Position numbers and translations under genes: made by a program. Positions 49,441-52,470 of a stretch of DNA of 64,000 nucleotides are shown piece after piece. Below the pieces are notes generated by a model, which was not told the DNA's origin, searched no databases, and saw only the letters and a list, made by a program, of their open reading frames with translations. Source of the stretch: Burkholderia ambifaria (lineage in GTDB: Bacteria > Pseudomonadota > Gammaproteobacteria > Burkholderiales > Burkholderiaceae); contig NZ_LKPJ01000011.1 in NCBI RefSeq assembly GCF_001443045.1, forward strand, positions 1 to 64,000, read 5' to 3'. The first letter of the stretch is position 1. Each line of letters starts with the position of its first letter.

Positions 49441-49533
49441 ACCGCTGAACCGCCGCGGCGCTTGAAACCCCGCCCGGCCAACCCATCTGCCCAGAACGCA
49501 CCCGACAACTTTTTGAGAACCCTCGATACCCGC

Positions 49534-51000
49534 ATGAACATCATCGAACCCGGCATCCGCAATCTTGCGCTGGCGAAGGACATCCTCCTCACGCCGTACG
49601 GCCTCGACGAGAGCCTGCTCACGCGCACGATCGCCGACATCTTCACGCATCGCGTCGACTACGCGGATCTGTACTTCCAGGCGACCCGCAGCGAAGCGTG
49701 GAGCCTCGAGGAAGGCATCGTGAAGTCGGGCAGCTTCAGCATCGACCAGGGCGTCGGCGTGCGCGCGGTCGCGGGCGATCGCACCGCGTTCGCTTACTCG
49801 GACGACCTGTCGCCGGAAGCCATCGCGCAGGCGGCCGCGGCCACCAAGGCGATCGCGGCGGCCGGCGGCGGCCGTCAGAAGATCAAGGCCGCGACGTCGC
49901 TGAAGGGCATCTCGGGCCGCGACCTGTACCTGCCGTCCGATCCGCTCGCATCGCTCGACGCGACCGCCAAGGTCAAGCTGCTCGAGCGCATCGAGCAGAT
50001 GGCGCGCGGCCGCGATCCGCGCGTCACGCAGGTGATGGCGGGCCTTGCCGGCGAATACGACGTCGTGCTGGTCGCGCGCAGCGACGGTGCGCTCGCCGCC
50101 GACATCCGCCCGCTCGTGCGCGTGTCGGTCACGGTGATCGCCGAACAGAACGGCCGCCGCGAGATCGGCTCCGGCGGCGGCGGCGGCCGCTTCGACTACG
50201 GCTACTTCACCGATGACGTGCTGTCGCGCTACGTCGACGACGCCGTGCACGCAGCGCTCGTCAACCTCGACGCGCGCCCCGCGCCGGCCGGCGCGATGAC
50301 GGTCGTGCTCGGGCCGGGCTGGCCGGGCGTGCTGCTGCACGAAGCGATCGGCCACGGCCTCGAGGGCGACTTCAACCGCAAGGGTTCGTCGGCGTTCGCC
50401 GGCCGGATCGGCGAGCAGGTCGCCGCGAAGGGCGTGACCGTCGTCGACGACGGCACGCTGCCGAACCGCCGCGGCTCGCTGAACATCGACGACGAAGGCA
50501 ACCCGACGCAGTGCACGACGCTGATCGAGGACGGCATCCTGAAGGGCTACATCCAGGACACGCTGAACGCGCGCCTGATGAAGATGCCGGTCACCGGCAA
50601 CGCGCGGCGCGAATCGTACGCGGCGCTGCCGATGCCGCGCATGACCAACACGTACATGCTCAACGGCGACAAGGATCCGCAGGAAATCATCGCGTCGGTG
50701 AAGAACGGCCTGTACGCGGTGAACTTCGGCGGCGGCCAGGTCGACATCACGAACGGCAAGTTCGTGTTCTCGGCGTCCGAGGCGTACATGATCGAGAACG
50801 GCAAGATCACCTACCCGGTGAAGGGCGCGACGCTGATCGGCAGCGGCCCGGAATCGCTGAAGTACGTGAGCATGATCGGCAACGACATGTCGCTCGACTC
50901 GGGCGTCGGTGTGTGCGGCAAGGAAGGCCAGAGCGTGCCGGTCGGCGTCGGCCAGCCGACCCTGCGGATCGACAAGATGACGGTCGGCGGTACGGCATAA
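49534..51000 (+). CDS. tldD: Metalloprotease TldD
   Basis: Zn protease subunit that with TldE (PmbA) processes peptides such as the CcdA antitoxin and modified bacteriocin precursors. 488 aa from the ATG at 49534. The frame runs 24 codons further upstream, but the family start MNIIEPGIRNLALAKDILLT fits the ATG. Motifs are the metal-binding GVLLHEAIGHGLEGDFNRKG (HExxxH) and the C-terminal VNFGGGQVDITNGKFVFSAS, GKITYPVKGATLIGSGPESL with the Cys-containing GVCGKEGQSVPVGVGQPTLR. The partner tldE is not in the window. Confidence 0.94.
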   Translation: MNIIEPGIRNLALAKDILLTPYGLDESLLTRTIADIFTHRVDYADLYFQATRSEAWSLEEGIVKSGSFSIDQGVGVRAVAGDRTAFAYSDDLSPEAIAQAAAATKAIAAAGGGRQKIKAATSLKGISGRDLYLPSDPLASLDATAKVKLLERIEQMARGRDPRVTQVMAGLAGEYDVVLVARSDGALAADIRPLVRVSVTVIAEQNGRREIGSGGGGGRFDYGYFTDDVLSRYVDDAVHAALVNLDARPAPAGAMTVVLGPGWPGVLLHEAIGHGLEGDFNRKGSSAFAGRIGEQVAAKGVTVVDDGTLPNRRGSLNIDDEGNPTQCTTLIEDGILKGYIQDTLNARLMKMPVTGNARRESYAALPMPRMTNTYMLNGDKDPQEIIASVKNGLYAVNFGGGQVDITNGKFVFSASEAYMIENGKITYPVKGATLIGSGPESLKYVSMIGNDMSLDSGVGVCGKEGQSVPVGVGQPTLRIDKMTVGGTA

Positions 51001-51074
51001 CCGCATCATGGCGCAGACAATCCGCGCGCTTCGACGAATACGTGCGGATTATCCGCATTTTTGAGCACCCCCGG

Positions 51075-51103
51075 TTGCCAGCCGCACGGCGACCGGGTAT
51101 AAA
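51075..51103 (+). promoter_or_regulatory. Sigma70 promoter of the aroG leader
   Basis: TTGCCA (51075-51080), 17-bp spacer, TATAAA (51098-51103). Predicted transcription start near 51110, about 30 nt before the leader peptide start. Confidence 0.8.
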
Positions 51104-51140
51104 TTCCGAATCAACTTTTTTGACGAACCGAATCTCCGTC

Positions 51141-51206
51141 ATGTCCGCCAAGTTTTATTTTTACTTTTTTTGGCATCTCAGACCGCTGGCGGATCGAGAG
51201 GGTTGA
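51141..51206 (+). CDS. Aromatic leader peptide controlling aroG
   Basis: 21-codon frame from ATG 51141 to TGA 51204. After M-S-A-K come seven aromatic codons in a row (51153-51173): Phe-Tyr-Phe-Tyr-Phe-Phe-Trp. His-Leu-Arg-Pro follow, then LADREG. The mix of all three aromatic amino acids matches the end products of the DAHP synthase encoded 190 bp downstream. The ribosome site is weak. The AT-rich codons (TTT, TAT, TGG) contrast with the GC-rich genes around it. The role as a sensor of charged tRNA is inferred from its place before mutually exclusive hairpins. I know of comparable leaders for E. coli pheA and trp, but not of a described one for aroG in this genus. Confidence 0.82.
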   Translation: MSAKFYFYFFWHLRPLADREG

Positions 51207-51267
51207 TGGCGCGTAAAGCGCAACCGAAATTCCCGAAAAACCGCCGGCGAACCCGGCGGTTTTTTTT
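51144..51267 (+). promoter_or_regulatory. Ribosome-mediated transcription attenuator of aroG
   Basis: Four segments can pair in exclusive ways. 1:2 is TCCGCCA (51144-51150) with TGGCGGA (51187-51193), seven perfect pairs enclosing the aromatic codons. 2:3, the antiterminator, is CGCTGGCGG (51184-51192) with CCGCCGGCG (51241-51249), nine pairs including one G-U. 3:4, the terminator, is AAAAACCGCCGG (51236-51247) with CCGGCGGTTTTT (51253-51264), and T continues to 51267. A ribosome stalled on the Phe/Tyr/Trp codons covers segment 1 and frees 2 to pair with 3, allowing read-through. One that reaches the stop at 51204 blocks segment 2 and lets 3:4 terminate. Confidence 0.85.
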
Positions 51268-51396
51268 CGCCCTTCGCCATCCGGTCGCCGCCGCAGCGGA
51301 TCCCGCGGCCCCGACCGAAACCACTGAATCGCTTGAATTGATGAATCTGCCGCACGCGCATTGACCGAACGGCGCCCGGAACCAAGGAGAAACAAC

Positions 51397-52470
51397 ATGC
51401 CCCCGCACAATACCGACGACGTCCGCATCCGCGAACTCAAGGAACTGACGCCGCCCGCCCACCTGATCCGCGAATTCGCGTGCTCCGAGGCCGCGTCCGA
51501 GCTGATCTACAACTCGCGCCAGTCGATGCACCGCATCCTGCACGGGATGGACGACAGGCTGATCGTCGTGATCGGGCCGTGCTCGATCCACGACACGAAG
51601 GCGGCGATCGAGTACGCGGGGCGGCTCGTGAAGGAGCGCGAGCGCTTCAAGGGCGAACTGGAAATCGTGATGCGCGTGTACTTCGAGAAGCCGCGCACGA
51701 CGGTCGGCTGGAAGGGGCTCATCAACGATCCGCACCTGGACAACAGCTTCAAGATCAACGAAGGGCTGCGCACCGCGCGCGAACTGCTGCTGCAGATCAA
51801 CGAGATGGGGCTGCCGGCCGCGACCGAATACCTCGACATGATCAGCCCGCAGTACATCGCCGACCTGATCTCGTGGGGCGCGATCGGCGCGCGCACGACC
51901 GAGTCGCAGGTGCACCGCGAACTGGCGTCGGGGCTGTCGTGCCCGGTCGGCTTCAAGAACGGCACCGACGGCAACGTGAAGATCGCGGTCGACGCGATCA
52001 AGGCCGCATCGCAGCCGCACCATTTCCTGTCCGTGACCAAGGGCGGCCATTCGGCGATCGTGTCGACGGCCGGCAACGAAGACTGCCACGTGATCCTGCG
52101 CGGCGGCAAGGCGCCGAACTACGACGCGGACAGCGTGAACGCCGCGTGCGCGGACATCGGCAAGGCCGGCCTCGCCGCACGCCTGATGATCGACGCGAGC
52201 CACGCGAACAGCTCGAAGAAGCACGAGAACCAGATTCCCGTGTGTGCGGACATCGGCCGCCAGGTCGCGGCCGGCGACGAGCGCATCGTCGGCGTGATGA
52301 TCGAGTCGCACCTCGTCGAAGGGCGCCAGGACCTGAAGGAAGGCTTCCCGCTGACCTACGGCCAGAGCATCACCGACGCATGCATCGCGTGGGACGACAG
52401 CGTGAAGGTGCTCGAAGGCCTCGCGGAATCGGTGAAGGCACGCCGCGTCGCGCGCGGCAGCGGCAACTGA
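51397..52470 (+). CDS. aroG: 3-deoxy-7-phosphoheptulonate synthase (DAHP synthase, class I)
   Basis: Condenses PEP and erythrose-4-phosphate in the first step of the shikimate pathway. 357 aa from the ATG at 51397 with AAGGAGA upstream (51384-51390). Motifs are RLIVVIGPCSIHDTKAAIEY, RVYFEKPRTTVGWKGLINDP, PAATEYLDMISPQYIADLIS, WGAIGARTTESQVHRELASG, SCPVGFKNGTDGNVKIAVDA and LMIDASHANSSKKHENQ. It is the AroF/G/H family with the N-terminal extension that carries allosteric inhibition. I cannot tell which amino acid inhibits it. It is transcribed through the leader and attenuator described above. Confidence 0.95.
   Translation: MPPHNTDDVRIRELKELTPPAHLIREFACSEAASELIYNSRQSMHRILHGMDDRLIVVIGPCSIHDTKAAIEYAGRLVKERERFKGELEIVMRVYFEKPRTTVGWKGLINDPHLDNSFKINEGLRTARELLLQINEMGLPAATEYLDMISPQYIADLISWGAIGARTTESQVHRELASGLSCPVGFKNGTDGNVKIAVDAIKAASQPHHFLSVTKGGHSAIVSTAGNEDCHVILRGGKAPNYDADSVNAACADIGKAGLAARLMIDASHANSSKKHENQIPVCADIGRQVAAGDERIVGVMIESHLVEGRQDLKEGFPLTYGQSITDACIAWDDSVKVLEGLAESVKARRVARGSGN

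Follow-up and report, generated by a model that had tools for sequence, protein, structure and literature searches.

Results

Anatomy of the aroG upstream region

The window, by which we mean the whole 64-kb stretch of Burkholderia ambifaria DNA that was analysed, carries tldD and, downstream of it, aroG, which encodes a DAHP synthase whose closest named relative among the matches listed comes from Burkholderia sp. LMG 13014 (99% identity). The interval between them contains a promoter, a short leader ORF with a run of aromatic codons and four RNA strands that can pair in alternative ways (Table 1). Direct reading placed the promoter, the 21-codon ORF, the seven aromatic codons and the terminator where an initial annotation of this DNA had located them. 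Transcription would start near position 51110. Between tldD and the aroG promoter we also observed a hairpin, TGCGGA-TTA-TCCGCA, followed by five T residues (51043-51062), which is likely to be the tldD terminator, separating the tldD and aroG units.

Table 1. Positions of genes and regulatory features at the aroG locus of the window.
Feature	Position	Strand	Basis
tldD, upstream of the aroG leader	49462-51000		NF008006
Promoter, sigma-70-type: -35 TTGCCA, 17-nt spacer, -10 TATAAA	51075-51080 (-35), 51098-51103 (-10)	+	Direct reading
Leader ORF, 21 codons, MSAKFYFYFFWHLRPLADREG	51141-51206 (ATG 51141, TGA 51204-51206)	+	Direct reading
Regulatory codons Phe-Tyr-Phe-Tyr-Phe-Phe-Trp, contiguous; expected ribosome stall site	51153-51173	+	Direct reading
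Strand 1 (partner 51187-51193)	51144-51150	+	Scripted pair check
Strand 2, within the final third of the leader ORF	51184-51193	+	Scripted pair check
Strand 3 (with strand 2, antiterminator; with strand 4, terminator)	51236-51249	+	Scripted pair check
Strand 4, terminator 3' arm	51253-51264	+	Scripted pair check
Eight-T run: five T inside stem 3:4, three beyond	51260-51267	+	Direct reading
aroG, DAHP synthase, controlled gene (AAGGAG 51384-51389)	51397-52470	+	NF006723, 606 bits (cut-off 568)

A scripted check of every base pair reproduced, base for base, the three mutually exclusive pairings claimed earlier: 1:2 (51144-51150 with 51187-51193, 7 pairs), 2:3 (51184-51192 with 51241-51249, 9 pairs including one G-U) and 3:4 (51236-51247 with 51253-51264, 12 pairs). 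The terminator had been described as followed by eight T, which is correct for the run itself and not for its place, part of it belonging to the stem. The leader promoter and terminator were not listed by a mechanical scan of 50800-51500, which demands a second hexamer with a final T and, for terminators, five T per eight bases at 0-2 bases past the stem. Because these settings exclude both sites, the promoter and terminator calls rest on direct reading and conservation, and the scan is not counter-evidence.

Chance occurrence and uniqueness

Only one place in the 64 kb, both strands considered, has an ORF of 14-33 codons in which six or more of seven consecutive residues are aromatic; this place has two start codons and one stop, and the T run of the terminator begins 56 nt past the stop. 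Among 5000 first-order Markov shuffles of 51001-51396 the ORF arose in 2 and the terminator in 45, and the two together in the proper order in none, which bears out the earlier judgement that chance occurrence is very unlikely. The predicted fold of 51110-51275 has an energy of -56.5 kcal/mol (z -3.46), and none of 200 shuffles was equally low. Six Phe/Tyr codons in a row, frame and ORF being ignored, match 2 places in the 8.1-Mb genome, the aroG leader and C24; since a reversed control pattern matches 4 places, the six-codon pattern is rare, is not enriched and by itself provides no evidence. A second copy of the element in the genome was ruled out by the single DNA match and the single strong model match.

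Conservation of the element in the genus and family

We fetched 140 DAHP synthase upstream regions, hand-picked from search matches rather than drawn at random, which together with the window make 141. An aromatic leader ORF, defined as 14-33 codons with at least five aromatic residues in seven, was found in 108 of these. A terminator was present in 106 of the 108, with the T run starting 43-72 nt past the leader stop; this count includes L120 and L139, although their scripted hairpin is weak. Where the leader ORF was absent, a hairpin above the script's score was detected in 2 of 33 regions. A laxer rule of four aromatic residues in seven gives 110/141, of which at least two (L097 and L144) look spurious; in L093 the five-of-seven count took the wrong ORF, and the likely leader is seen under the laxer rule.

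Within the genus, leader and terminator are present in all 42 regions (the window and 41 others), with a near-identical ORF in every one. That close relatives had lost the aromatic run or the stems had been named beforehand as the finding that would speak against an attenuator; the run and the terminator are retained throughout these 42 regions. The exact sequence TTGCCA-17-TATAAA is the best promoter site in 33 of them. Over 106 leader regions the best promoter site averages 8.5 matches out of 12, versus 6.6 in shuffled sequence, and reaches 7/12 or fewer in 31 of the 106. Searching 61 genus genomes with a covariance model trained on 32 family sequences gave a single strong match per genome, at 144-156 bits, and no other match listed exceeded 32.4 bits; all 61 strong matches end 84-178 nt before the DAHP synthase match.

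The seven-codon run varies mostly synonymously: across 67 distinct family sequences, 70 of 87 differences fall at third positions, a count in which related sequences repeat one event many times and which leans towards conservation, because the script required the aromatic pattern and skipped 12 rearranged but still aromatic loci. The start ATG is present in every family leader.

Covariation and predicted folding of the alternative stems

To follow the stems across sequences we used a family alignment of 32 of 33 representatives (L064 left out) and a cross-family alignment that first held 41 of 46 sequences, L120, L139, L193, L214 and L244 being set aside for irregular terminators, and that was then recounted with all 46. 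In the family, 100% of the cells of stem 3:4 are paired and 10 carry double changes, a number that 500 shuffles of the combined structure (1:2 with 3:4) never reached; across families 98.3% are paired, with 21 double-change cells (0/500 shuffles), compared with 98.9% and 17 in the 41-sequence first count. Stem 2:3 is 94.8% paired in the family with one double-change cell, a level reached by 135/500 shuffles. In the 46 sequences it is 83.9% paired with 9 double-change cells (3/500 shuffles; 84.7%, 8 cells and 8/500 in the first count), two of its seven pairs being unpaired, in 13 and 33 sequences. Further pair types were no better than shuffles for either stem in the 46 sequences (418/500 for 3:4 and 445/500 for 2:3); all these covariation shuffles ignore the relatedness of the sequences.

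Stem 1:2 is paired in 84.8% of cells in the 32 family sequences, with no double change. It scores at least 16 in 60 of 79 sequences inside the family, where just 34/79 beat 49 of 50 shuffles, and in 1 of 20 outside. Since it is kept in the family and absent elsewhere, 1:2 is not an obligatory part of the element. A 2:3 match beating 49 of 50 shuffles was seen in 72/79 sequences inside the family and 8/20 outside, so that the antiterminator is well supported in the family and less so at a distance. The search for compensatory changes that had been suggested for the three stems accordingly found them for 3:4, to a modest extent for 2:3 and not at all for 1:2.

The cores of the strands are nearly invariant in the 46 cross-family sequences: strand 2 contains GGCGG in 42, strand 3 CCGCC in 44 as aligned, and strand 4 GGCGG in 44. 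The cores are not free to vary, because strand 3 has to pair with two partners. At one locus (L075) strands 2, 3 and 4 all differ from those of its neighbours, at the cost of a Leu to Pro change in the peptide.

Calculated hairpin energies in the window are -9.0 (1:2), -14.6 (2:3) and -18.4 (3:4) kcal/mol. RNA beginning at 51170 and ending before strand 4 is predicted to form 2:3, and RNA beginning at 51196 to form 3:4. Because 3:4 is the more stable once strand 4 is present, antitermination must be kinetic; the modelled energies and folds of the window are in the order expected of a kinetic switch. When strand 4 is left out, strands 2 and 3 form the outermost stem in the folds predicted for all 36 non-redundant sequences of the family. 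Single folds also suggested a conserved hairpin inside this stem; we rejected it, as the consensus fold of an alignment of 34 of these 36 (L064 and L087 left out) keeps the outer stem alone. The predicted fold also pairs the putative 5' end of the transcript (51110-51123) with 51194-51207, around the leader stop.

Codon content and start region of the leader ORF

The run in the window consists of four Phe, two Tyr and one Trp codon. Among 101 distinct leader peptides, which were selected as aromatic, Phe occurs in the run of 101, Tyr in 98 and Trp in 69; Trp is found anywhere in the peptide in 72 and is missing from 29, and 70 peptides contain all three residues. Codon 11 carries Gly, Ser or Ala in place of Trp in 10 of 67 family sequences. 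Judged by these sequences, joint sensing of Phe and Tyr is likely. The initial annotation held that the leader could sense all three aromatic tRNAs, which describes its codon content.

A Shine-Dalgarno sequence is absent from the leader start: the mean 16S duplex energy over 106 leaders is -0.15 kcal/mol, compared with -6.46 at approximate gene starts and -2.10 in random nearby stretches. We noted a T-rich tract near the putative transcript start (51110-51140 in the window). The predominance of synonymous variation and the invariant ATG of the family leaders speak for leader translation, and the missing Shine-Dalgarno sequence speaks against it. A weak leader start would itself shape the response. 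Translation of a leader without a ribosome binding site has reportedly been described by Morbach et al. (2000) for ilvBNC of C. glutamicum.

Distribution beyond the family

In 200 genomes of the order, the family model gave a match with E ≤0.01 in 73. Comparison by eye placed 32 of the 33 matches below E 1e-5 immediately before a DAHP synthase gene, the exception being G156. At 80 named DAHP synthase loci kept from a larger search result, leader and terminator were found together at 40, a leader-like ORF without terminator at 5 and neither at 35; one of the 80 (L216) offers just 55 nt of upstream sequence. Among the 40 positive loci are some from Paraburkholderia, Caballeronia, Cupriavidus, Massilia, Janthinobacterium, Rugamonas, Herminiimonas and Oxalobacter, from Xanthomonas, Stenotrophomonas, Dyella and Pseudoxanthomonas, and from Devosia, Bradyrhizobium and Mesorhizobium, genera which we take to represent other Burkholderiales families, the Xanthomonadaceae and the Rhizobiales. 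The combination is absent at the Dickeya, Pantoea, Erwinia, Serratia and Citrobacter loci in this set, and likewise at those of Methylotenera, Thauera, Azoarcus, Chromobacterium and Polynucleobacter.

A cross-family covariance model of 41 sequences matched 86 of 398 phylum genomes at E ≤0.001, many of the matches being short and terminator-like. From the model matches we fetched 20 (15 outside the order and 5 inside), and 15 of these have a DAHP synthase gene directly downstream together with an ORF in which at least four of seven residues are aromatic. The other five (L260 and L263-L266; E of about 5e-7 to 1e-4) were rejected as elements, having neither DAHP synthase nor a convincing leader. 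In distant leaders the peptide is altered yet aromatic, and terminator pairs are altered on both sides. Rebuilt peptides that keep Trp include SFYFWYYGF in Xanthomonas and SYFWYFSY in Bradyrhizobium. Leaders of the Bradyrhizobium/Mesorhizobium type precede DAHP synthase at L237, L239-L241 and L251-L256, most of them ending SSLAAGG.RSI, and they indicate that the element reaches the Alphaproteobacteria; its presence there may reflect either descent or transfer with the gene.

A tree built by a quick method holds 117 rows, 66 with the leader, 50 without and 1 unknown, under a stricter leader rule that misses L259, L267, L188 and L244, whose leaders were seen separately. Some loci have unusual arrangements. 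In Undibacterium sp. TS12 (L188) the distance from leader and terminator to the downstream DAHP synthase gene is unusually long, at about 600 nt. Tandem DAHP synthase genes stand behind one aromatic leader at L162 (G292) and at G165:C1:2636360-2638529 (family f23). Short FYWY leaders lacking the PLA-type strand-2 motif, both ending SQRMRV.A, occur at L261 and L262 (family f91, genus g222).

Paralogues, regulators and published expression data

The second DAHP synthase gene of the genome (G000:C56:125379-126422; L128, L148) encodes a protein with an N-terminal extension, and its upstream region has no aromatic leader and no terminator. Both were absent from all six paralogue upstream regions inspected (L128 and L148, and L131-L134 from other genera). 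TrpR (PF01371) was not found in any of the 21 genus genomes searched; a control search of 14 genomes detected it in two, E. coli among them.

Published reporter data are available for Ralstonia solanacearum. According to the part of that report available to us, deletion of aroG2 raised the activity of an aroG1-lacZ fusion from 47 to 702 Miller units in rich medium and from 46 to 499 in limited medium; with 1 mM Phe the deletion strain gave 316 and 223, respectively, and in the wild type Phe barely altered expression (47 to 40) (PMC6379268). Its authors interpret the results as promoter activity, and the main text contains neither 'leader' nor 'attenuat' (PMC6379268). We infer that aroG1 is probably the leader-bearing orthologue, because aroG2 has an N-terminal extension like the leaderless Burkholderia paralogue. 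As aroG2, taken as the leaderless type, responds as strongly, the lacZ response is not specific to attenuation, and the data fit attenuation without proving it.

Discussion

The region before aroG has the hallmarks of an attenuator: an aromatic ORF after a promoter, a terminator before the gene, and an antiterminator competing with it for one strand, the last being weaker outside the family. These parts are conserved, and their pairings exclude one another. We consider it very probable, with little room for doubt, that DAHP synthase is controlled here by ribosome-mediated attenuation, aroG being switched on when aromatic amino acids run short. The reading first proposed for this locus is in this respect supported by anatomy and conservation, with the amendment that 1:2 is not obligatory outside the family. 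RNA polymerase would start near 51110 and a ribosome would translate the 21-codon leader. If charged Phe- or Tyr-tRNA (and probably Trp-tRNA) is scarce, the ribosome would stall within 51153-51173 and cover or block strand 1, so that 2:3 could pair before strand 4 is made; no terminator would form and aroG would be transcribed. When the aromatic tRNAs are charged, the ribosome would reach the stop codon at 51204-51206 and cover or shield strand 2, whereupon 3:4 would pair and transcription would end at the T run (51260-51267). Failure of translation would, within the family, give 1:2 and 3:4 and hence termination. Leader translation and stalling are what the anatomy leads us to expect, and our view of how large the response would be, and to which amino acids, has the same basis.

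The attenuator may be narrower than its codons suggest, sensing Phe alone or Phe and Tyr, with the Trp at codon 11 a passenger or, being last, of weak effect. This is a serious alternative, if a somewhat improbable one. The declining occurrence of Phe, Tyr and Trp in the runs and the replacement of Trp at codon 11 in part of the family speak for it, as does the aroF leader of C. glutamicum, which answers Phe limitation and not Tyr in the available portion of the account (PMC11802643). Against it, the Trp codon is retained in most leaders, even in the rebuilt ones of Xanthomonas and Bradyrhizobium, and a ribosome at codon 11, between strands 1 and 2, should on the presumed geometry also block 1:2. 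We regard it as very unlikely that the main product is instead the terminated transcript or its peptide acting in trans, and that aroG is controlled in cis as a side effect. At about 158 nt, the RNA predicted to end at the terminator (51110-51267) is well conserved in the genus, and the excerpts available describe a precedent in rnTrpL and peTrpL of Sinorhizobium meliloti (PMC7298713; PMC10117765), but the element has one strong copy in the genus, always at DAHP synthase, and the parts that cis action requires are those best conserved across families. Hardly credible is the view that tldD and aroG are separated by a constitutive intrinsic terminator and that the aromatic ORF follows from RNA structure or from a stretch rich in U. 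In its favour, strand 2 lies inside the ORF, so that part of the peptide (PLADREG) bears the mark of RNA constraint, and the leader has no Shine-Dalgarno sequence. Against it, the run varies mostly synonymously in the aromatic-selected set, aromatic residues are retained between families even where the RNA encoding them has diverged, and tldD is followed, upstream of the promoter, by a hairpin and T run of its own.

Returning to ribosome-mediated attenuation, a broader form of it can be put forward tentatively. It is quite conceivable, although we stop short of calling it probable, that one attenuator family in beta-proteobacteria, Xanthomonadaceae and Rhizobiales, tied to DAHP synthase and with a leader that starts without a Shine-Dalgarno sequence, governs how the shikimate pathway is entered by reading all three aromatic tRNAs at once, in lineages for which control of this step by TyrR/TrpR is lacking or undescribed.

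Comparison with known systems places the element in a classical mechanism class. The pheL-pheA leader of enterobacteria (RF01859, Phe_leader) is likewise Phe-rich and belongs to the aromatic pathway, but it controls pheA and not DAHP synthase; its switching logic is the one proposed here for the aroG element. The Phe_leader model scores the aroG element at 18.2 bits (E 1.3; gathering score 55). Attenuators of the trpL-trpE kind, in E. coli and rhizobia, share the mechanism class but respond to a single amino acid and act on another target. Leaders of the ilvGMEDA type combine, in a different pathway, codons for several end products in one leader. The aroR-aroF attenuator of Corynebacterium glutamicum is said to have been treated by Neshat et al. 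(2014), and proteobacterial attenuators have reportedly been surveyed by Vitreschak et al. (2004, FEMS). The aroR-aroF system is the closest precedent, since there, as here, a leader peptide with aromatic codons precedes DAHP synthase, as far as the accessible sections of two reports describe it (PMC11802643, PMC4046766). The attenuator was predicted in one of these (PMC4046766), and expression of aroF rises under Phe limitation, Tyr being without effect, in the other (PMC11802643). Compared by these partial descriptions, the two differ in that C. glutamicum belongs to the Actinobacteria and has a Phe-Tyr-Phe run for which Trp goes unmentioned, whereas the aroG leader is proteobacterial and has seven codons of three kinds.

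The initial annotation knew of no description of this leader for Burkholderia aroG. For DAHP synthase under an aromatic leader peptide the C. glutamicum system is a precedent; for Proteobacteria, none of the open-access papers listed in our searches described a DAHP synthase attenuator, and subscription papers may hold one. In main texts, neither 'attenuat' nor 'aroG' occurs in a B. cenocepacia start-site paper (PMC4603805), nor 'leader' or 'aroG' in a B. cenocepacia small-RNA paper (PMC10175445), nor 'aroG', 'DAHP' or 'aromatic' in a survey of premature terminators (PMC2965389), nor 'aroF', 'aroG' or 'DAHP' in an S. meliloti small-proteome paper (PMC10117765). A large regulon study, in the part available, reports regulons of TrpR and of TyrR (PhhR) for lineages of the gamma-proteobacteria (PMC5343134). 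At the gathering score, Rfam families, including riboswitches, T-boxes and other leaders, gave no match in the window and none in 20 related loci, and at a lax score no family was found for the aroG element.

The element is notable for its target, its codon run for three amino acids and its unusual spread. To our knowledge, control of the first step of aromatic synthesis is little described in Proteobacteria beyond the well-studied gamma lineages, and the element provides a concrete answer on DAHP synthase control for many of them. It represents an RNA family missing from Rfam, draws attention to a probable small protein and small RNA left unannotated in many genome sequences, and is a control point for strains that produce aromatic compounds. 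With a reporter, the leader also lets one ask whether entry into a branched pathway depends on whichever of three tRNAs is in shortest supply.
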